64,000 bases of DNA from Deltaproteobacteria bacterium CSP1-8 (GTDB lineage: Bacteria > Desulfobacterota > Deferrimicrobia > Deferrimicrobiales > Deferrimicrobiaceae): contig LDXO01000001.1 of assembly GCA_001443455.1 (NCBI GenBank), positions 128,968 through 192,967 on the forward strand, in the 5' to 3' direction. The notes beneath the pieces were generated by a model, which saw only the letters and a program-made list of their open reading frames with translations, was not told the DNA's origin and did not search any database. This document shows, one piece after another, positions 51,385 through 62,023 of the stretch. A program made the translations under genes and the position numbers. Every line of letters begins with the position of its first letter. The first letter of the stretch is position 1.

Positions 51385-52239
51385 TTACCGGAACAGCTCC
51401 GTGTCGACGAAACCGGCCTCCACGAGCGACCAGAAGTCCACCGCCAGCCCGTTCTCGACGTAGGCGTAGGGCAGCCAGCCGTACCCCGCATCCCCCCATG
51501 CCGTCCCCCAGGAGTTGCGGATGCGCAGGGCTCCCTTCTCCTTTCCGATCGTTTTCCCGTCGTCGTAGCCGATGGCCACGACGGCATGCCCGCCCTCGAG
51601 GCGGTCGCCGGGGCGGGGGTAGGGGATCTCCCCCTTCCCTTCGCCGATCGCCGGCATGGAACTGTATACCGAGAATCCGAACATGGACGGCAGCCTCGCC
51701 GCCAGCTTCCGTCTCACGTCGGCGAGGATCCCGCCCGGGGGCGTGCCCGGCGGGTCGAGCCGGTAGTATCGGATCGCCTTGTAGCTCTGCCCGAAGGCGT
51801 AGCAGAACGCGGGGGGCTCCTCGTCGAACTTCCCGGCGTCATACCGCCAGTATGGCTCGGGGGGCACGCCGAACAGGACCATCCCCTTCATCGTCGTCCG
51901 GAGGTAGGCTCCCTGGTCCCCCGTCCACCCGAGGAGGGCCCTCGTCACCTTGTAGAGGAAGAGCCGCGAGCCGTCGAGGTGCCTGCCGAACGCCCGGCGC
52001 TGGAAATATTCGAGCAGGCCGATCCCCGCGTTCGCCGTGCACGACCCGAGACTCCCCTGGTCCTCGACGGGAGAACACCATTCCCGCAGGTCGACCGTGC
52101 GGGGAAGACGTCTGGCGGCCGCCTTGAGCGGTTTCGATCGGTCCAGGACCCGCGCCACGTCCGTCGCATCGGACGTGTAGTCCCTGACGTCCGGCAGGTC
52201 CCGCTTCCAGCCCATCCCTCCCATCCCGTTCGTGCTCAT
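51385..52239 (-). CDS. Papain-like (C1 family) cysteine protease
   Basis: A 284-residue C1A peptidase without a signal peptide or inhibitory prodomain. The catalytic Cys is in EDQGSLGSCTANAG, His in EGGHAVVAIGYDD, and Asn in RIRNSWGTAWGDAGYGWLPY; the oxyanion Gln is in VEDQG. Bacterial members of this type are cytoplasmic and of unknown substrate. AAAGGAGGGAGCGCA precedes ATG 52239; the frame extends to 52320 without a site. It is divergent from the riboswitch-dynamin unit. Confidence 0.92.
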   Translation of the reverse strand: MSTNGMGGMGWKRDLPDVRDYTSDATDVARVLDRSKPLKAAARRLPRTVDLREWCSPVEDQGSLGSCTANAGIGLLEYFQRRAFGRHLDGSRLFLYKVTRALLGWTGDQGAYLRTTMKGMVLFGVPPEPYWRYDAGKFDEEPPAFCYAFGQSYKAIRYYRLDPPGTPPGGILADVRRKLAARLPSMFGFSVYSSMPAIGEGKGEIPYPRPGDRLEGGHAVVAIGYDDGKTIGKEKGALRIRNSWGTAWGDAGYGWLPYAYVENGLAVDFWSLVEAGFVDTELFR

Positions 52240-52436
52240 TGCGCTCCCTCCTTTGCCGGCCCCCGTACCGGATGCGGAAGACGGGGTCGCGGTTGCGGTG
52301 ACCGCGTGCGGCTCGCCCATTATGACAAGGGAGGACGGATATTTCCATTTCCGATCGATCCGTCCCCCGTCCGCCCGGGAAAGTGTGCCCGGGAAAGTGT
52401 TGAGCGCCCCTTTCGGGGATGCTATCCTGCAGGAAA

Positions 52437-52523
52437 ATAGGCGATGGAGTTCGCCGAAAAAACCGCCTGTCCTTCCGACGGCTGATGACTCCTGCGACGG
52501 ATCCCTTCGCGGGAGTTTTTTTT
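52437..52523 (+). promoter_or_regulatory. Fluoride (crcB-motif) riboswitch
   Basis: The aptamer consensus is complete: ATAGGCGATGGAGTTCGCC (52437-52455), AAAACCGCC, a short variable hairpin (CTGTCCTTCCGACG), then GGCTGATGACTCCTGC (52480-52495). It matches the B. cereus crcB element nearly base for base in conserved positions. The 3' strand of P1 (GACTCC) is shared with the 5' arm of a terminator, so fluoride should stabilise the aptamer and allow transcription. The next gene, 17 nt on, is the dynamin-like GTPase; no crcB/fluc gene is in this window. Confidence 0.93.
52487..52523 (+). terminator. Riboswitch-controlled terminator
   Basis: ACTCCTGCG (52488-52496) pairs with CGCGGGAGT (52508-52516), closed by ACGGATCCCTT and followed by eight or nine T residues. 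The 5' arm overlaps the end of the fluoride aptamer, the standard expression-platform design in which the off state is this terminator. Confidence 0.9.
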
Positions 52524-52539
52524 ACGGGGAAATGACCGG

Positions 52540-54192
52540 ATGAGAGACGATGTTTCTCAAAAAACCCGCCTGGATGCGATCGGTGACATCTGCGAGGAAT
52601 TTCACATCGACTCCCTTGCCCCGCAGGTTGCGGCCGCGTCCGAGACCCTTCGAAGCGGCGGCGTGGTCGACATCGCCGTCCTCGGACAGTTCAAGGCGGG
52701 CAAGAGCTCGTTTCTGAACTGCCTGATCGGGAGGGAGGCCATGCCGGTGGACGTCCTTCCGGCGACCGCCGTCGTCACGAGGATCGGCTTCGGGCCGGCC
52801 GACCGGGCCGTCGTTCACCGCATGGGGGGCGGGGACGAGGAGATTCCGGTGGACCGGTTGGCCGAGTTCGTGACCGAGAAGCGCAATCCGGGGAACGAAA
52901 AAAAGGTCTCGATCGTCGAGGTGTCGCTCTCCTCCCTCGCGGAGTTTCCCGGCGTCCGCTTCGTCGATACGCCGGGCCTGGGAAGCATCTTCGCGCACAA
53001 CACGCTTACCTCCCTGGAATGGCTTCCCCGGGTGGGCGGGGCCCTCCTCGCGGTGAGCGTCAACCATCCCTTCTCCGGGCAGGACCGGAAGCTTCTCGAG
53101 GAGATTTTCCGGAACACTCCGGAGGCGGCGATCCTCCTGACGAAGGCGGACCTGGTGAGCGAGAGCCAGCTCGACGCGGTCGTCGAGTTCACCCGGCGGC
53201 AGGCTGCGTACCATACCGGGAGAGAGATCCCCATCCTTCCGTATTCCGTCATGCCGGGCTACGAAACCTTCCGGGACCTGGCGCGGGAGTACCTGCTCCG
53301 CCGGGTCGTCGAGCGGCGGGAGGAGAAGTTCGACGAGATCGTGAACCACAAGATCCGGTCGCTGGCTGCGGGCTGCCGCGCCTATCTCCGCCTTTCGCTT
53401 GCCGCCGCGGCCGCCGACGAACAGGCTCGTTCGGACCTGAAGGAGGTCCTGATGCGGGAGCATCACGATCTCGGGGCGGTCCGAAGCGAGATGTCGCTCT
53501 TTTCCCGGGACATGAAATCCCGGGTGCGCACGGCTGCCGGGGAACGGTTCCATTCCTATCAATCGAACGTGTCCGGCCGGTTGAGCAGCGCGCTTCCGGA
53601 GAGGATGGAAGGCTGGAAGGGGAATCTCGCGAAGACGACGCGGGAGTTCCAGGGGTGGCTGGCCGCTACCCTGGAGGAGGAACTGACGGGGATCTCGGCC
53701 GCCGAAGGGGAACAGCTGTCGGGATTTCTTTTCAAGGCCCGATCGAGCATTGCCCGCACCGTGCGCGCCTTCCAGGACAGGCTTGCGAAGGAGATCGAGC
53801 GCGCCCTTGGTCTCTCCTTCGAGGGGGCCAACTTCCACGCCGAGGTCGAAGAGCCCTCTCGGCCCGACATCCGGACGGGCAGGACGTTCGACACCGGCGT
53901 CGAGCTGCTCTGGTTCCTCATCCCGATGGGGATCTTCCGGCCGCTGGTCCGGCGCCATTTCCTCCGGCGGATCCCCTGGGAGGTGGAGAAGAACCTCTCG
54001 CGCCTGGCCGCGCAATGGGCCGACGCCGTCAACGCCTCGATCGACGGCCTTGCCCGCCAGTCGATGGCGTTCCTGGCCAATGAGCTGGCCACCCTCGAGG
54101 GGCTGGTGGGCAACGCCTCCGACCGGAGGCCGGAAATACAAAAAGCCCTCGATCTTTTGGACTCCCTGGAGGCCGGTGCGGCCTTCCACTGA
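52540..54192 (+). CDS. Bacterial dynamin-like GTPase behind a fluoride riboswitch
   Basis: A 550-residue dynamin-family GTPase. G1 is GQFKAGKSS (49-57), G2 is probably in LPATAVVTR, G3 is DTPGLGS (143-149), and G4 is TKAD near 201-204. Long charged helices (about 260-450) follow, then a hydrophobic paddle-like segment GVELLWFLIPMGIFRPLV near 453-471, suggesting membrane insertion, and further helices. Bacterial dynamins remodel or repair membranes. Its only visible regulator is the fluoride riboswitch 17 nt upstream, implying a role when fluoride enters the cell. GGGGA is a weak ribosome binding site. The gene stands alone; mobA and partners converge on it. Confidence 0.92.
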   Translation: MRDDVSQKTRLDAIGDICEEFHIDSLAPQVAAASETLRSGGVVDIAVLGQFKAGKSSFLNCLIGREAMPVDVLPATAVVTRIGFGPADRAVVHRMGGGDEEIPVDRLAEFVTEKRNPGNEKKVSIVEVSLSSLAEFPGVRFVDTPGLGSIFAHNTLTSLEWLPRVGGALLAVSVNHPFSGQDRKLLEEIFRNTPEAAILLTKADLVSESQLDAVVEFTRRQAAYHTGREIPILPYSVMPGYETFRDLAREYLLRRVVERREEKFDEIVNHKIRSLAAGCRAYLRLSLAAAAADEQARSDLKEVLMREHHDLGAVRSEMSLFSRDMKSRVRTAAGERFHSYQSNVSGRLSSALPERMEGWKGNLAKTTREFQGWLAATLEEELTGISAAEGEQLSGFLFKARSSIARTVRAFQDRLAKEIERALGLSFEGANFHAEVEEPSRPDIRTGRTFDTGVELLWFLIPMGIFRPLVRRHFLRRIPWEVEKNLSRLAAQWADAVNASIDGLARQSMAFLANELATLEGLVGNASDRRPEIQKALDLLDSLEAGAAFH

Positions 54193-54218: not shown

Positions 54219-54827
54219 CTATTGGTCGTGGTCGGAAAGCATCCGGAAATCCCCGGGCGTGTTGATGTTCATGAAGGAGCGAAAGCCCGGATCGACCCCG
54301 GCGACTTCTTCCGCAGGAATTTCCCGCGTCCGCAAACGGCCGATGAGCGCCATAAGCGAAAAGTCGCCTTTCCGTAGCGATTCCTCGATGAGCGGCAGGC
54401 ACTCCTTTCCGTAAACGGCGCAGAGGGGCTCCGGGCCGTGGGGACCGCAGGGGATCACCAGGTCGGGCTCCTCCGTTTTTCCCGCCAGCAGTTCCAATAG
54501 GGAGGGGGAAAGAAACGGTGCATCGCAACCGACGACGAGAACGTACGGATTTCGGCTGTGTCGCAGGGCGGCGTCCACCCCGGAGATCGGCCCCTTTCCC
54601 GGGACCCGGTCGGGTATTTTCGGGCAGGGGACGAAGTCGAAAGGGCCGGGGTCGTTGGTGACCAGGAAAATATCCTCGAACAGGGGTTGCAGGGTTTCGT
54701 ATACCAGGGCGACCAGCGGTCCGCCCCGGAACGGAAGGAGCGCCTTGTTCCTGCCCATCCGGCGGGATTTTCCGCCGGCCAGGATGGCGGCCGATATGTT
54801 CCGGATGCGGTGGGCCGGTTCCCTCAT
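54219..54827 (-). CDS. mobA: Molybdenum cofactor guanylyltransferase
   Basis: A 202-residue MobA adding GMP to molybdopterin to give the bis-MGD form used by the oxidoreductase at 58802. The nucleotide-binding signature AAILAGGKSRRMGRNKALLPF lies at the N-terminus (counting from ISA), with VVGCDAPFLSP supplying the Mg/GTP Asp and NINTPGD near the C-terminus. ATG 54827 overlaps the transporter stop by 4 nt. Last gene of the leftward moeA-transporter-mobA operon. Confidence 0.93.
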   Translation of the reverse strand: MREPAHRIRNISAAILAGGKSRRMGRNKALLPFRGGPLVALVYETLQPLFEDIFLVTNDPGPFDFVPCPKIPDRVPGKGPISGVDAALRHSRNPYVLVVGCDAPFLSPSLLELLAGKTEEPDLVIPCGPHGPEPLCAVYGKECLPLIEESLRKGDFSLMALIGRLRTREIPAEEVAGVDPGFRSFMNINTPGDFRMLSDHDQ

Positions 54828-55975
54828 CGGGGGAGATCGCCTTTGTTCTTTCCGTGGAAGATCGCCCAGAAGAGGATTCCCGCCAGAAACCCGGCCGTGA
54901 CGTTCACGGACAGGATCAGTCCCGCGGTGAGCAGCGCCACCAGGAAATCCTCCCTTCCGGGAAGGTCGCGTGCGGGAAGGGACAGTTCCAGCCCGGCAAA
55001 GACGAGAAGCGCGCCGAGGATGCTCTGCGGGAAGTTCTGGAGGGGGATCAGCAACGCCGTCGCCGCGGCGACCCCCACGGCCATTTTCATTCCTCCCAGG
55101 AACACGACGGAGCCGCCCGTCCTCGCCCCGAAATGATACTGGCCCGCAAGGCCCCCGGCGCCATGGCACACGGGCATCCCGCCGAACCAGCACGAGATCA
55201 GGTTCATGGCCCCGACGCTCCGCGCCATCTTCGCCTCGGGGATCTTTCTCCCGGGGAACAGGTCCCCGGAGAGGGCGCATACGGCCACGACGGAGTTGAG
55301 AAGCGTGAGCGGGATCTGGGCGATCGCCCCTCTCGTGAACCCACGCCACCAGTCCCCCGCGGAGGGGATGATGACCTCGGGGGCCCATGTCGTAAACGTC
55401 AAGTTTCCGAGCAGGCCGGGCCGGGAGACCCCGAGCAAGAGGAACCCGAGCAGGAACAGGATGAGTGCCGCGGGCACCTTTCGCCGGAAATAGGACAGGA
55501 CGATCAGGGTCACGGCTACCCCGCCGACCAGGAGGCTGTCCCATCCGATCATCGGGAGGGGAAGCATGGTCTGCACCCCTGTCAGAAGAAGCTTGAGCCC
55601 GATGCCGAGCTGGATTCCCCGGACGACGGGCCTGGGGGTAAGGGAAAGGAGCCGGCCGGCGCCGGGAAAGATCCCGATGAGGAAGACCATCCCGCCCATG
55701 AGGATGCCCGCCGCCGCGATTTCCCCCGGCGTCATCCCCTCCGCGATCGCCACCGCAGCAATGGCCTTCATCGGCTGCACCGGGATCGGCAGCCGGAAGA
55801 GGAAACCGGTCACGACGTTCCACAGTCCCGCGAAGAAGAAGACGGGGGCGGGGGACAGGCCGCATTGGGCGATGTACCCGAGGGTGAGCGGAAGGAACGT
55901 CCCCAGGTCTCCCAGGGAGCCGGAAATCTCCTCGCGGGTGAACCGGAATCCCGGGGAAGCGGCCTCACCCCTCAT
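54824..55975 (-). CDS. MOT1-type molybdate transporter
   Basis: An inner-membrane protein of 383 residues with about 10 spans, of the SulP-related MOT1 family. Its signatures are EISGSLGDLGTFLPLTLGY, LPIPVQPMKAIAAVAIAEG, and GGMPVCHGAGGLAGQYHFGA followed by RTGGS. MOT1 proteins import molybdate with high affinity in plants and occur in bacteria beside Mo-cofactor genes. Here it lies between moeA and mobA with overlaps on both sides, which strongly supports molybdate as substrate in place of an ABC ModABC system. Confidence 0.92.
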   Translation of the reverse strand: MRGEAASPGFRFTREEISGSLGDLGTFLPLTLGYIAQCGLSPAPVFFFAGLWNVVTGFLFRLPIPVQPMKAIAAVAIAEGMTPGEIAAAGILMGGMVFLIGIFPGAGRLLSLTPRPVVRGIQLGIGLKLLLTGVQTMLPLPMIGWDSLLVGGVAVTLIVLSYFRRKVPAALILFLLGFLLLGVSRPGLLGNLTFTTWAPEVIIPSAGDWWRGFTRGAIAQIPLTLLNSVVAVCALSGDLFPGRKIPEAKMARSVGAMNLISCWFGGMPVCHGAGGLAGQYHFGARTGGSVVFLGGMKMAVGVAAATALLIPLQNFPQSILGALLVFAGLELSLPARDLPGREDFLVALLTAGLILSVNVTAGFLAGILFWAIFHGKNKGDLPR

Positions 55976-57200
55976 GCGAGAGGAAATTCCCCCAGATGGG
56001 ATAGAATCGGACGATCTCTCCCGCGGGGAGGTGCGAAGTCCCCAGGGGGATCTCGAACACTCCCTCCGCGAGGCAGGCGGAGACGAAATCGCCCGATCCG
56101 TGGGAGGGGATCTCCACCACCCGGGTTTCCCCGCCTATTTTCTCGAGTCGGCCGATGGAGAACTTTTTTCCCCCGCTCTTGTTGACCGCTCCTTCCGCGA
56201 GGGGGAGGAGGATCGGTTTCGGGAAGCAATCCGTCGCACCGGATGCTTTGAGCAGCAGCGGCCGGATGAACAGGGAGAAATGGACCATCACCGCCACGGG
56301 ATTTCCGGGCAGGCCGACCACGATCCCCCCGCCGGGAGACTCGCCCGCGAAGATCGGCTTCCCCGGCTTGACGGCGATCTTGTGCAGGATCTTCCGGACC
56401 CCGCAGGCGGCAAGGCAATCGGGCACGATGTCCACGTCCCCCACGGATACGCCGCCCGAGAGGAGGAGAAAGTCGCAGGCGAGTCCCTCGCGGATCTTCG
56501 CCGTGATGGTTTCCCTGTCGTCCTTTACGATCCCCAGGTACCGGACCTTCCGGAAGCCGAGACTGTTGAGCGCGGCGAGGAGAAAATGGGCGTTGCTGTT
56601 GCGGATCATGGGGCCTTCGGCCCCCTCCCACGGTTCGACCAGCTCGTCGCCGGTCGAAAGGACCGCGACGGTCGGGCGCCTGTAGACCGGGACCTCCCAC
56701 CCGCCGACGGAGGAAAGCGTAGCGACATGATGGGCGGAAAGAAACGTTCCCGAGGGAATGAGGACCGCACCCCGGAGGACGTCTTCCCCCTCCCGTGCGA
56801 TGTTTTGCCCGCGGCTGGCCGGGGTTTGGAAGCGAACGGATCCCCCTCGGTCGACTTGTGCGTGCTCGACCTGGATCACCGTGTCGAACGGCGCCGGGAC
56901 CATCGCCCCGGTCATGATCCTGACGCAGCCCGCCTCGGTGGCGTCGCCGCTCCACACGGTGCCCGGGTTGACCGATCCCACCACCCGGTACGTTCGTTCA
57001 GTTTCTTTCCCCGTCCAGACGACGGCGAACCCGTCCATCGCCGCGCGGGGAAATGGCGGAATGTTCCGGTCCGCGATCACCTCCCGGGCGAGGATCTCGC
57101 CGGCGACGTCCGGGAGGGGAACCTCGCGGACATCCCGGGTGCGGACGAAGGGCAGTACCGAGGCAAGCGCCTCCTCGTAAGTGATCGCCACGATCCTCAC
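55965..57200 (-). CDS. moeA: Molybdopterin molybdenumtransferase
   Basis: A MoeA of about 411 residues inserting Mo into adenylylated molybdopterin. The motifs are PPFPRAAMDGFAV, AGCVRIMTGAMVP, TVIQVEHAQ, STGDELVEP, LLLSGGVSVGDVDIVPD, and the C-terminal VVGLPGNPVAVMVHF. ATG 57203 sits directly against AAGGAGA with no spacing, so GTG 57200 (4-5 nt spacing) is more likely used. It overlaps the transporter gene by 11 nt. First gene of the leftward operon. Confidence 0.94.
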   Translation of the reverse strand: MRIVAITYEEALASVLPFVRTRDVREVPLPDVAGEILAREVIADRNIPPFPRAAMDGFAVVWTGKETERTYRVVGSVNPGTVWSGDATEAGCVRIMTGAMVPAPFDTVIQVEHAQVDRGGSVRFQTPASRGQNIAREGEDVLRGAVLIPSGTFLSAHHVATLSSVGGWEVPVYRRPTVAVLSTGDELVEPWEGAEGPMIRNSNAHFLLAALNSLGFRKVRYLGIVKDDRETITAKIREGLACDFLLLSGGVSVGDVDIVPDCLAACGVRKILHKIAVKPGKPIFAGESPGGGIVVGLPGNPVAVMVHFSLFIRPLLLKASGATDCFPKPILLPLAEGAVNKSGGKKFSIGRLEKIGGETRVVEIPSHGSGDFVSACLAEGVFEIPLGTSHLPAGEIVRFYPIWGNFLSHEG

Positions 57201-57203
57201 CAT

Positions 57204-57627: not shown

Positions 57628-57945
57628 ATGAATAGGGCAATGATCGTGCTTGCGCTCCTCGTCGCCGTGACATCGGCCGGATACGCACGGGTCGGCGGAG
57701 GCGACATCGTCTATGAGGTCAAGAAAATCGGCAACGTCACCTTCCGCCACGACGCGCACGTCGGGAAGTCGGGCCTTCCCTGCACGGCATGCCACGCCTC
57801 CTTGTACGTGACGAAGGAGAAGCGCAAGACCGCTACCATGTCCCAGATGGGAAAGGGGGCTTCCTGCGGTTCCTGCCACAACGGGAAGACGGCGTTCTCC
57901 GTGAAGGGGAGCTGCAATCAGTGCCACACGAAGGAGGTGAAGTAA
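57628..57945 (+). CDS. Triheme c7-type cytochrome
   Basis: A 105-residue periplasmic cytochrome with a signal peptide (about 1-20) and three CxxCH motifs: CTACH, CGSCH and CNQCH. His residues in FRHDAHVGK are likely sixth ligands. It resembles the c7-type triheme domain of deltaproteobacteria, which passes electrons between periplasmic enzymes and quinone-linked complexes. It lies immediately before the iron-sulfur subunit (adjacent stop/start) and probably serves the oxidoreductase in place of a membrane NrfD-type subunit, which is missing from this operon. Confidence 0.92.
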   Translation: MNRAMIVLALLVAVTSAGYARVGGGDIVYEVKKIGNVTFRHDAHVGKSGLPCTACHASLYVTKEKRKTATMSQMGKGASCGSCHNGKTAFSVKGSCNQCHTKEVK

Positions 57946-58788
57946 ATGTTCGAGGGAAGGGACGAACTGACCGTCATCCAGGAAGATATCCAAAGAGCTC
58001 TGGCATCCCCCGACGGCAAATGGGCGATGCTCATCGATCTTCGGCGCTGCACGGCGTGCAAGTCGTGCACGGCGGGCTGCGTGGCCGAACAGAAAAGCCC
58101 GCCGGGCGTCGTCTACCGGCCGGTCTACGAGGAGGAATCGGGCTCGTTTCCCGACGTCAAGAGACGGTTCACGCCAAGACCCTGTCAGCAGTGCGACAAC
58201 CCTCCCTGCGTGGACGCGTGCCCCAACAAGGGGGAGGGGAAGGCGACCTGGAAGAGCACGAAGGGGAAAAGCGCCGGCATCGTCATGATCAATTACGGGC
58301 AGTGCGTCGGCTGCGGGCGCTGCGTGATCGCCTGCCCGTACAAGGCACGGACCCTGGACGCGGGCAGCCTCCACACCGAGGGGACTCCCAGAGTGGAGGA
58401 GTACGAGAAGTCCCCCACCTGGGAGTACGGCCGGAAATGGCCCCGCGAGAAGTTTCATACCCCCTGCGGGAATGCCCGAAAGTGCCATTTCTGCTATCAC
58501 CGGCTGAAGAACGGCATGGTCCCGATGTGCGTGAGCACCTGCATCTGCCGGGCGAACTACTTCGGGGATCCCGAAGATACAAAGAGCCTGATCCACAAGA
58601 TGATCAAGGAGAACAAGGTCACGGTGCTGGCCGAGGTGTCGTCGAAGGGGCAGGCGAAGCTCAAGGACGCGGACCTGAAGGACCGGAGCCCGTCGGACAT
58701 CGCCGGGAAGATCGGCTACCCGGGGACCACCCCGTCGTTTGCCGGGGAATCGAAGACCAAACCCAGGGTCTACTACATCCTGCCGTAG
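57946..58788 (+). CDS. NrfC/PhsB-type 4Fe-4S electron-transfer subunit
   Basis: A 280-residue ferredoxin subunit with four [4Fe-4S] motif groups: CTACKSCTAGC, CQQCDNPPCVDACP, CVGCGRCVIACP and CHFCYHRL...CVSTC. This is the beta subunit of CISM-type molybdoenzymes (DMSO, polysulfide, tetrathionate and arsenate reductases). No signal peptide is seen, so it is probably exported with the Tat-dependent catalytic subunit encoded 13 nt downstream. ATG 57946 directly follows the cytochrome stop, with AAGGAGGTGAAGTAA as ribosome binding site. Confidence 0.94.
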   Translation: MFEGRDELTVIQEDIQRALASPDGKWAMLIDLRRCTACKSCTAGCVAEQKSPPGVVYRPVYEEESGSFPDVKRRFTPRPCQQCDNPPCVDACPNKGEGKATWKSTKGKSAGIVMINYGQCVGCGRCVIACPYKARTLDAGSLHTEGTPRVEEYEKSPTWEYGRKWPREKFHTPCGNARKCHFCYHRLKNGMVPMCVSTCICRANYFGDPEDTKSLIHKMIKENKVTVLAEVSSKGQAKLKDADLKDRSPSDIAGKIGYPGTTPSFAGESKTKPRVYYILP

Positions 58789-58801
58789 TCGAGGTGAAGA
58801 G

Positions 58802-61800
58802 ATGGAAGAGAAAAAGAATCGCCGGGACGGCATAAACCGGAGGGATTTCCTGAAGTGCACCGCGGTTCTCGGGGGCACGGTCCTCGCCTCGCAGCTCGAA
58901 TGGGCCACGGACCTGATGCGCCGGGCCGAGGCGGGGCAACTCACCCCCGAGGAGGAGTACGAGCTGGTCAGGGCGGAAAACACGCTCCATACCGTCTGCC
59001 TCCAATGCAATACCGGCTGCGGCATCAAGGTCAAGTTCTTCCGGAAGAACGGCAGCGCCGTGGCCCTGAAGATCGACGGGAACCCGTACAATCCCTTCGT
59101 TTCGGTCCCCCATGCCCCGTACGGGACTTCTCCGTCCGAATTGAACAAGGTCGACATGGCGATCTGTCCCAAGGGGCAGGCGGGACTCCAGAGCGTCTAC
59201 GACCCGTACCGGATCACGAAGGTCATCAAGAGGGCCGGGAAGCGGGGCGAGGGGAAATGGATGACGGTCCCCTTCGACCGGGCGGTCGACGAGATCGTCG
59301 GTGGCGGGAAGCTCTTCCGCCACGTGCCGGGGGAGGAGAGCCGTGAGGTGACCGGGCTCAAGGAGATCTATGCGCTCCGCGACCCGAAGATCGCCAAGGA
59401 GATGGGCGAGGACGCGAAAGCGATCGGCAAGGCGAAGGATAAAAAGAAGGCCGTCGAGGAATTCAAGGCAAAGCATGCGCCGAACCTTTCGCACCTCATC
59501 GACCCGGACCACCCGGATCTGGGGCCCAAGAACAACCAGATGGTCTACATGTGGGGCCGGAAGAAGGGCGGCCGGGGGGACTTCTCCGCGCGGTTCTTCG
59601 GGGACTACTTCGGGACGGTCAACACCCACGGCCACACGACGGTGTGCCAGGGGTCGCTCTACTTCACCTGCAAGGCGATGAGCGAGCAGTACGAATACAG
59701 CAAGTTCGGAGGCGGCAAGAAGTTCTACTGGCAGGGGGACTTCGAGAACAGCGAATACATTCTGTGCGTGGGGTCGAACCTTCTCGACGCCAACTACGGC
59801 CCCTCGAACCGGAACGTGCGGCTCATTCCCAACCTGGTCAGCGGGAAGACGAAGATGACCGTCGTCGATCCCCGCTTCAACAAGGCGGCGGCGAAGGCGA
59901 ACCGGTACCTGCCGATCCAACCCGGGGAGGACGGCGCTTTCTTCGCAGGGATCATCCAATGGATCATCAACAACAAGAAGGTTGACGCCAAGTACCTGGC
60001 ATGCGCGAACAAGGCGGCCGCCAAGGCGGCCGGAGAACCGACCTGGTCCAACGCCGTCCTCCTCGTCAAGATGGACAAGGACGGCAAGCCGGGCAAGTTC
60101 CTGCGGGCCCACGAGATCGGCCTGGCCCAGCCCGAGAAGAGAAAGGACAAGGACGACAAGGAGCACGACTTCGAATACCTCGTGGCGATGAAGGACGGGA
60201 AGCCGGTCGCCGTCGATCCCAACGACGACAAGAACCCGGTCACGGGGGACCTGCTGGTCGACGCGGCGATCGGCGACGTCAAGGTGAAATCCGGGCTTAC
60301 GCTCGTCGCCGAAGCGGCAAACGCGAAGCCGATGGACGAGTGGTCGAGGATCTGCGGGATTCCCGCGAAGGAGATCGAAGCGGTCGCGAAGGAGCTGACG
60401 AGCCACGGGAAAAAGGCGGTCGTGGACGTCCACCGGGGGATCGCCCAGCACACGAACGGCTTCTACAACGTGCTCTACGCGATGACGATCAACCTCCTCC
60501 TCGGGAACTTCGACTGGAAGGGGGGGATGATCGAGGCGTCGACTTACAACACGACGGGAGGGAAGGAGGGTCAGCCGTTCGCCCTGGCGAAAATGGCCCC
60601 GGGGAAGAACGGGAAGTTCGGGATCAGCGTGATCCGGCACGACGTCAAGTACGAGGAGACGTCCCTCTTTTCCGGCTACCCGGCGAAGCGGAACTGGTGG
60701 CCCCTCGCCTCGGACATCTACGAGGAGATCGTCCCCTCGATCGGCGACGCCTACCCGTACCCGATCAAGGCCCTCTTCTCCTACATGTGCACGCCGGTCT
60801 ACGCCCTTCCCGCGGGGCAAACCAACATCCCGATTCTCATGGACGTGGGGAAGGTCCCCCTTTACTTCTGCAGCGACATCCTGATCGGGACCACGTCCAT
60901 GTACGCCGACTACATCTTCCCCGACCTGTCGTTCCTGGAACGGTGGGAGATGCAGGGGTCCCACCCCAACATGCCGGTCAAGGTCCAGCCGATCCGGCAG
61001 CCGGTCATCGCCCCGATCCCGGAGACGGTGAAAGTCTTCGGGGAGGAGATGCCCTGCTCCTACGAGGCGCTCCAGCTCGCCCTTGCGGAGCGGCTCGGGA
61101 TGAAGGGGTACGGCAAGGACGGGTTCGGGCCGGGGCAGGACTTCACCCGTCCGGACGATTTCTATATCCGGATGGTCGCCAACGTCGCCACCGACGGGAA
61201 GCCCGTTCCCGATGCCGACGATGCGGAGCTCAAACTCTTCCTCGAATCGCGCAAGCACCTTCCGAAGACCGTGTTCGACCCGGGGCGGTGGGAGAAGATC
61301 GCCGGGGCGAACTGGCGGAAGGTGGTCTACGTCCTGAACCGCGGCGGGCGTTTCCAGGAGTACAAGGACATCTACAAGGGCGACCACGTGGCCAACCAGT
61401 ACAAGTCGCTCATCAACCTGTACCAGGAGAAGACCGCCGGGACGAAAAACGCGTTCACCGGGAAATCGAATCCCGGATACGCGACCTATATCCCGATCGC
61501 GTCGGCCCTCGGGAAATCCCCGAAGGACGAGGGGCTGACCGAGGGGTATCCCCTGCACCTGATCACGCAGAGGGACATCCTGATGACCAAGTCGCGGACC
61601 GTCGTGGACTATTGGCTGCTTGCCATCAAGCCGGAGAACGAGCTCCTCATCCATCCGGCGACCGCCGGGAAACTCGGGCTCAAGACCGGGGACCGGGCCA
61701 AGGTCGTTTCGGCGACGAACAAGGAGGGGGTCTGGGATCTCGGGAACGGGATGAAGAAGCCCATGATCGGGATGGTCAAGTCGACCGAAACGATCATGCC

Positions 61801-62023
61801 CGGGGTGGTCACGTTCACCCTGGGGCACGGGCACTGGGCGACCGGGGCGGCGGACGTCGTGATCGACGGGAAACTCGTCAAGGGCGACCCGAGGAGGGGG
61901 ACCGGCGTCCACGCCAACGCCGCCATGTGGGTGGATCCCTACCTCAAGAACACCTGCATGCTCGACCCGGTGGGCGGGAGCGTGTCGTTCTACGATACGA
62001 AGGTGAATCTTGTGAAGGGATAG
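58802..62023 (+). CDS. Tat-exported molybdopterin oxidoreductase (TtrA/ArrA-like)
   Basis: A 1073-residue DMSO-reductase-family catalytic subunit. A Tat-type start NRRDFLKC near residues 12-19 is followed by the [4Fe-4S] ligands CLQCNTGC (from 66) with the last Cys in AICPKG (122). Cys282 in HTTVCQGSLYF is the probable Mo ligand. The bis-MGD dinucleotide-binding domain closes the C-terminus (GDRAKVVSATNKEG). Length and the CQGSLYF motif place it near tetrathionate, arsenate and selenate-type reductases, which cannot be separated by eye. A stretch of about 85 residues rich in Lys/Asp (DKDDKEHDFEYLVAM near 450) looks like a family insertion. The operon has the beta subunit and a triheme cytochrome but no NrfD anchor. 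Confidence 0.92.
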   Translation: MEEKKNRRDGINRRDFLKCTAVLGGTVLASQLEWATDLMRRAEAGQLTPEEEYELVRAENTLHTVCLQCNTGCGIKVKFFRKNGSAVALKIDGNPYNPFVSVPHAPYGTSPSELNKVDMAICPKGQAGLQSVYDPYRITKVIKRAGKRGEGKWMTVPFDRAVDEIVGGGKLFRHVPGEESREVTGLKEIYALRDPKIAKEMGEDAKAIGKAKDKKKAVEEFKAKHAPNLSHLIDPDHPDLGPKNNQMVYMWGRKKGGRGDFSARFFGDYFGTVNTHGHTTVCQGSLYFTCKAMSEQYEYSKFGGGKKFYWQGDFENSEYILCVGSNLLDANYGPSNRNVRLIPNLVSGKTKMTVVDPRFNKAAAKANRYLPIQPGEDGAFFAGIIQWIINNKKVDAKYLACANKAAAKAAGEPTWSNAVLLVKMDKDGKPGKFLRAHEIGLAQPEKRKDKDDKEHDFEYLVAMKDGKPVAVDPNDDKNPVTGDLLVDAAIGDVKVKSGLTLVAEAANAKPMDEWSRICGIPAKEIEAVAKELTSHGKKAVVDVHRGIAQHTNGFYNVLYAMTINLLLGNFDWKGGMIEASTYNTTGGKEGQPFALAKMAPGKNGKFGISVIRHDVKYEETSLFSGYPAKRNWWPLASDIYEEIVPSIGDAYPYPIKALFSYMCTPVYALPAGQTNIPILMDVGKVPLYFCSDILIGTTSMYADYIFPDLSFLERWEMQGSHPNMPVKVQPIRQPVIAPIPETVKVFGEEMPCSYEALQLALAERLGMKGYGKDGFGPGQDFTRPDDFYIRMVANVATDGKPVPDADDAELKLFLESRKHLPKTVFDPGRWEKIAGANWRKVVYVLNRGGRFQEYKDIYKGDHVANQYKSLINLYQEKTAGTKNAFTGKSNPGYATYIPIASALGKSPKDEGLTEGYPLHLITQRDILMTKSRTVVDYWLLAIKPENELLIHPATAGKLGLKTGDRAKVVSATNKEGVWDLGNGMKKPMIGMVKSTETIMPGVVTFTLGHGHWATGAADVVIDGKLVKGDPRRGTGVHANAAMWVDPYLKNTCMLDPVGGSVSFYDTKVNLVKG

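Follow-up and report, generated by a model that had tools for sequence, protein, structure and literature searches.

The window analysed here, a stretch of 64 kb, holds a single match to any Rfam family (cmscan), the fluoride riboswitch RF01734, which is followed on the same strand by the gene of a dynamin-like GTPase. The features of the locus are as follows.

52400-52428, plus strand: possible promoter, TTGAGC and TATCCT separated by 17 nt, read by eye from the sequence
52431-52501, plus strand: fluoride riboswitch aptamer (RF01734), 53.6 bits against a gathering score of 34, E 4.7e-12, full model 1-64; P1 GGCG...CGCC, pseudoknot GGAGT with ACTCC
52487-52523, plus strand: intrinsic terminator, 11-bp stem followed by T8, fold z-score -3.0
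52540-54192, plus strand: dynamin-like GTPase of 550 amino acids, Pfam Dynamin_N 64 bits against a cutoff of 27
54219-54830, minus strand: mobA-like gene

An earlier note on this DNA had described a complete crcB-motif aptamer, an overlapping terminator with a T-run and, 17 nt on, the ATG of a 550-residue dynamin as the sole downstream gene, and the covariance-model, folding and domain searches bear out each of these elements. The conserved core of the aptamer starts at 52440, and the start given in the note, 52437, lies inside the RF01734 match. In the terminator, GACTCCTGCGA (52487-52497) pairs with TCGCGGGAGTT (about 52507-52517) ahead of the T8 run, and the region 52470-52530 folds with a minimum free energy of -24.3 kcal/mol (z -3.0). 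The 5' arm of this stem overlaps the last 15 nt of the RF01734 match, which couples the expression platform to the aptamer, and since it includes the 3' pseudoknot strand ACTCC, the folded, ligand-bound aptamer and the terminator are mutually exclusive. Transcriptional ON switches are commonly arranged in this way, and the aptamer, judging from its sequence, would bind fluoride. The candidate promoter matches the consensus at 8 of 12 positions, which is under the threshold of the promoter scan, and would place the transcription start near the 5' edge of the aptamer. About 17 nt separate the T-run from the dynamin ATG at 52540, and GGGG some 10 nt 5' of this ATG could be the ribosome-binding site. 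An overlooked gene between terminator and dynamin is ruled out, as the gap holds only an out-of-frame ATG ACC GGA TGA. Because the mobA-like neighbour points the other way, the dynamin stands alone downstream of the switch. From this anatomy, together with the conservation described below, we consider it nearly certain that the switch controls the dynamin gene.

On its other side the riboswitch shares an intergenic region with the gene of a divergent papain-family (C1) cysteine protease (51385-52320, minus strand). Beyond the dynamin, convergent mobA-like, MFS_MOT1 molybdate transporter and moeA genes occupy 54219-57203 (minus strand) and 57628-62023 (plus strand), and the same stretches also encode a cytochrome c7, a ferredoxin-type protein and a large molybdopterin-type oxidoreductase open reading frame. 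The gene at the 3' end of the dynamin is also kept in G004 (L068).

By fold, the window protein is predicted to be an ordinary dynamin-like protein of the BDLP/IniA type. It carries the GTPase motifs G1 (GQFKAGKSS), G3 (DTPG) and G4 (TKAD), and an AlphaFold2 model built on a 7-sequence alignment (pLDDT 81, pTM 0.71) shows a G domain and a trunk of long helices. Between two of these helices, from residue 456, lies a conserved hydrophobic segment, LLWFLIPM, partly at low pLDDT, in a position that we take to be about where BDLP bears its membrane paddle. The best Foldseek matches in the PDB are BDLP (2j69, E 2e-17), IniA (6j72, E 3e-16) and the Campylobacter DLP pair, at TM-scores no higher than 0.3-0.4, values that differing domain angles would account for, and a sequence profile search of the PDB agrees on the BDLP/IniA/DLP relatives. 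Pfam finds neither a CRCB nor a Voltage_CLC domain in the protein, which by sequence is not a transporter. A defence dynamin of the LeoA/LeoBC kind was considered and rejected, the match to LeoA being limited to 74 residues of the G domain (29 bits) and the genome showing no second dynamin gene. Relatives on plasmids were likewise considered and rejected, as a plasmid search returned distant dynamins only, whose matches cover about one third of the protein at 25-34% identity.

The pairing of switch and dynamin is conserved far beyond the window. In the clade around the window dynamin (clade A), all 40 assessable dynamins, from Desulfobacterota, Planctomycetota and Bacteroidota, have a fluoride riboswitch upstream on the same strand. 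In a first set of 148 relatives, RF01734 was found at 98 sites in 70 genomes (5 of these sites below the gathering score), a 15-sequence dynamin profile was searched in the same genomes, and the coordinates of the two coincide; roughly 30 of these 98 have a dynamin of clade A or B under their control. Within the window's family the dynamin follows the switch directly in G000-G004, G007, G009, G013 and G018, or else is part of a run of genes headed by the switch (G008, G012, G014, G017, G022), and outside the family G081 and G090 carry the pairing as well. In the planctomycetes G148 and G149 the operon consists of the switch, an antiporter, UspA, TPR, HEAT or phosphatase genes, enolase and the dynamin, and the switch sits at the operon head about 5.3 kb upstream of the dynamin; planctomycete homologues without a switch were a candidate exception that we rejected, as the 5-kb flanks were too short to reach it. 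Among the Bacteroidota, the dynamin lies directly behind the switch in G150 and G308, and in G204 the switch is about 2.4 kb upstream. The first set contributes 19 of 19 assessable cases, namely the 18 clade-A members labelled in the tree, and G204. The incomplete copies of G003 and G090 are not counted, though both lie behind a switch, and contig ends interrupt G010, G016 and G058. Clade A forms one supported group (SH-aLRT 100).

The profile of the first set was built largely from riboswitch-associated proteins and its sample is thus biased, which is why the relation was tested out of sample: a protein profile was run over 395 genomes of the phylum, and the upstream DNA was then scanned for the switch with the Rfam model and a model built from the earlier aptamers. 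A same-strand switch precedes all 21 new clade-A dynamins, at a distance of about 110 bp or less from the protein match in 19 of the 21, and in the subset run with the Rfam model 18 of 18 pass the gathering score. In most relatives the dynamin is the direct neighbour of the motif. Genes found between the two are for the most part known fluoride genes or short open reading frames on the same strand, so that no different conserved gene separates them. The dynamin profile matches in 34 of the 148 relatives and several genomes of the same family lack a match, so that the dynamin is dispensable at the species level. Incomplete copies also occur, of about 201 amino acids in G090 (L099), with an in-frame TAA in G037 (L051) and with a split frame containing an undetermined base in G003 (L039), and these may reflect gene loss in some lineages or assembly errors.

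A second group, clade B, comprises dynamins of about 600 amino acids that are about 30-37% identical to the window dynamin in the G domain, and it is looser in the tree, with several open forks and long branches. Its link to the switch is frequent but has exceptions, among them G096, G128, G159 and G722. Out of sample, 26 of 34 new cases have a switch within about 300 bp. Over all the genomes surveyed, switch-bearing members of clade B come from Desulfobacterota, Planctomycetota and Bacteroidota. The switch is direct at 10 of 15 planctomycete loci and further upstream in G661; in Bacteroidota it is direct in G191 and G332 and about 3.2 kb upstream in G226. Several planctomycetes (L128, L130, L132, L133, L134, L136) have a clade-B dynamin between two fluoride riboswitches of the same strand. 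More distant dynamins, mostly of about 650-800 amino acids, were seen with a switch in none of 21 cases, of which 8 planctomycete loci and 1 Bacteroidota locus were scanned directly and 12 from Desulfobacterota were judged by position, lying away from every one of the 98 RF01734 sites. Surveyed by clade, the motif accompanies every assessable dynamin of clade A, part of clade B and none of these distant dynamins, and since the latter show none, the link follows particular dynamin subfamilies rather than dynamins generally.

Covariation is seen in the aptamers in front of dynamins, in P1 as well as in the pseudoknot. Across 42 of them P1 is 98.8% and the pseudoknot 100% paired, with two-sided changes in 7 of 9 pairs, among them the pseudoknot variants GGAGT/ACTCC, GAAGT/ACTTC, GGGGT/ACCCC and GGAGC/GCTCC, whereas in a control with slid partners pairing falls to 45-59%. 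The terminator arm overlaps the aptamer in most of the dynamin-associated loci checked. A pattern search detected no terminator in G001-G003, G150 and G308, among others, and such switches may act on translation.

Further evidence comes from the company of the dynamins. Enolase, antiporter, UspA, HppA and CrcB genes, named by reading the sequences and in the case of CrcB in G008 confirmed by Pfam, are found with them, and all five are established fluoride-response genes (PMC11139923, PMC5533749). Enolase adjoins a clade-A dynamin in several genomes (with a gap of 30 in L212 and 35 in L219, and upstream in L220) and immediately precedes it in both planctomycetes (G148, G149); a CPA2 antiporter gene follows the dynamin by 28-35 bp in L209 and L221; a HEAT/zinc-ribbon protein is a further partner; and in an island of G008 switches lie over enolase, antiporter, UspA, CrcB and both dynamin types. 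HppA-like membrane pyrophosphatase genes stand beside dynamins in L111, L112, L038 and L075, following clade-B copies that lack a switch in G096 and G128, and in G001 and G002 following the riboswitch and its dynamin.

Neither a second fluoride riboswitch nor a second Dynamin_N gene was found in the window's genome, of which the assembly is 79% complete, and CrcB was not found there, nor anywhere in the genus (five genomes, G000-G004); G002, at 96% completeness and in a single contig, gives the same picture. In G000, G001 and G002 the CLC proteins read have frames of at least about 600 amino acids with the signature GSGGS and, in part, GKEGP. This differs from the CLC-F signature; the proteins are presumably of the ordinary CLC type, and a hidden CLC-F among these copies was rejected. 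The genus has thus kept the fluoride riboswitch, yet a known fluoride exporter was not identified in it, with respect to CrcB in all five genomes and to CLC in the copies from these three.

How does this system compare with those already described? As a member of RF01734 the switch is ordinary and shares with other regulons of this family the standard aptamer core, pseudoknot and overlapping terminator; the dynamin operons likewise share antiporter, UspA, enolase and CrcB genes with described ones, but the gene controlled in the window differs in encoding a dynamin-like GTPase. The novelty therefore lies in the pairing. Dynamins are not named in the regulon lists of PMC2864571, PMC7266159, PMC11139923 and PMC5533749, and the earlier note, which knew of no dynamin case, agrees with the literature searched, in which we found no pairing of a fluoride riboswitch with a dynamin, although Baker 2012 with its supplement could still contain one. 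The Fluc/CrcB and CLC-F exporters are governed by the same switch as the window gene, whose product has neither of their domains. With Nostoc BDLP (2j69), mycobacterial IniA (6j72) and Campylobacter DLP1/DLP2 (5owv) the window dynamin shares the Dynamin_N domain and, judging from the model, probably a long helical trunk and a hydrophobic tip, but it is only 13-18% identical to them and lies behind a fluoride switch; moreover, DLP1 and DLP2 form a pair whereas the window dynamin is a single gene. DynA of Bacillus subtilis, a fused tandem dynamin, is not linked to fluoride and is matched by the window protein only weakly and locally (NF052648, 32 bits against a cutoff of 1600). As a stress-protective dynamin it is nevertheless a possible functional analogue (PMC8844932).

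Taken together, the pairing in every assessable clade-A dynamin and the operons with known fluoride genes strongly support the proposal of the earlier note that the dynamin takes part in the fluoride response. Its further suggestion, membrane repair or an aid to export, is plausible. It is highly likely that this is a dedicated fluoride-response protein, and with the pairing recurring in dozens of genomes of three phyla the dynamin very probably represents an overlooked part of bacterial fluoride survival. But what would a dynamin do there? In the absence of fluoride the nascent RNA would fold the terminator and the gene would be silent; fluoride, with Mg2+, would lock the pseudoknot of the aptamer and thereby remove the 5' arm of the terminator, so that the dynamin is made. 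HF would enter as a weak acid, loading the cell with protons and fluoride. We suggest that the GTPase, being of the BDLP/IniA type, may then bind the inner membrane via its conserved hydrophobic tip and assemble, keeping the membrane sealed or remodelling damaged patches during HF stress, and that it may work beside proton antiporters and the replacement enolase. Such maintenance or remodelling of the membrane under HF stress is our first choice of mechanism, and we would give it about an even chance of being right. The fold alone does not imply a specific membrane function, and the model gives the hydrophobic tip low confidence; the suggestion draws in addition on the company of proton antiporters and on the stress roles of DynA and IniA, of which the former clusters after nisin treatment and has been proposed to act at damaged membranes (PMC8844932), while the latter is drug-induced and mediates fission (PMC6715688). 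By extension, we tentatively put forward an arm of fluoride resistance that is independent of export, in which dedicated dynamins of clades A and B would guard against HF stress by their membrane activity and, in genomes like that of the window where neither CrcB nor CLC-F was found, form the main riboswitch-controlled defence against fluoride; we give this somewhat less than an even chance.

Fluoride might instead inhibit the GTPase through GDP-AlFx or GDP-MgFx mimics, the switch merely raising the amount of dynamin to compensate. Dynamin-superfamily GTPases have been captured with transition-state mimics, and Mfn1 entries in a 'transition-like state' are among the structural matches to the window dynamin. 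The riboswitch-controlled enolase and pyrophosphatase have been interpreted in this way (PMC11139923, PMC5533749). Compensation of this kind, however, suits housekeeping enzymes, whereas the dynamin is an accessory gene, and the constant presence of the switch in clade A suggests that these proteins have no job independent of fluoride. We therefore regard compensation as unlikely, and less likely than membrane maintenance.

An equally improbable role would be that of an export helper, which organises, delivers or stabilises ion transporters such as the antiporter, CrcB or a pumping pyrophosphatase rather than acting on lipid. A CPA2 antiporter is indeed encoded in the operon or adjoining it in G081, G012, G014, G022 and others, CrcB in G008 and an HppA-like pyrophosphatase in G001, G002, G096 and G128, but these partners vary, the dynamin is alone behind the switch in the window and in many relatives, and the genus of the window shows neither CrcB nor, among the CLC proteins read, a CLC-F.

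Alternatively, fluoride could act twice, inducing the gene and then, as a GDP-metal-fluoride complex, locking the dynamin in the assembled state, which would make the protein a fluoride-gated scaffold or sink. The chemistry of GTPase transition-state mimics is in favour of this, as is the conservation of the catalytic motifs in clade A, where G4 is the only one altered (SKxD, in two planctomycetes). Yet such complexes usually require Al or Be, the copy number of a protein makes it a poor sink for a millimolar ion and no sequence feature singles out a fluoride-locked assembly, all of which makes this reading very unlikely. Finally, riboswitches can remain after gene loss, and the switch might be the remnant of a lost neighbour, with the dynamin behind it by accident. 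This has next to no probability. Estimated from the density of 98 sites over 148 genomes of about 3 Mb each, chance would place a riboswitch on the same strand and no more than 600 bp upstream of a given gene with a probability of the order of 1e-4 or less; moreover, the two are direct neighbours in tens of genomes of three phyla, and chance is ruled out by the out-of-sample conservation in 21 of 21 new clade-A dynamins.

A group of poorly understood bacterial dynamins thereby gains a concrete physiological cue, and if membrane maintenance is indeed the role, the fluoride response would be extended by protein subfamilies whose activity, the remodelling of membranes, was not expected there. With one switch and one gene the system is small, and it makes two questions testable, namely how cells are protected from fluoride besides export and what bacterial dynamins are for.

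Other proteins accompany these riboswitches as well. At L040:11189-11755 and L050:2627-3094 a small Cys-rich protein with no Pfam match is encoded between the fluoride riboswitch and the dynamin; the motifs common to the two include ECPIPFE/CGPCDIPPE, LVPVR, FSCRWFY and CxGCPHW, a similar fragment precedes the dynamin of G012, and this is possibly a second new family of the fluoride regulon. Uncharacterised proteins also lie directly behind fluoride riboswitches of Desulfobacterota (L015, L174, L187, L177, L183, L188, L052), namely DUF6062 proteins, a zinc-ribbon/HEAT protein marked by FCPNCW and, found behind dynamins in L215 and L217 too, a repeat protein (QCxSGGFCFYRLEEPNGxDTY).
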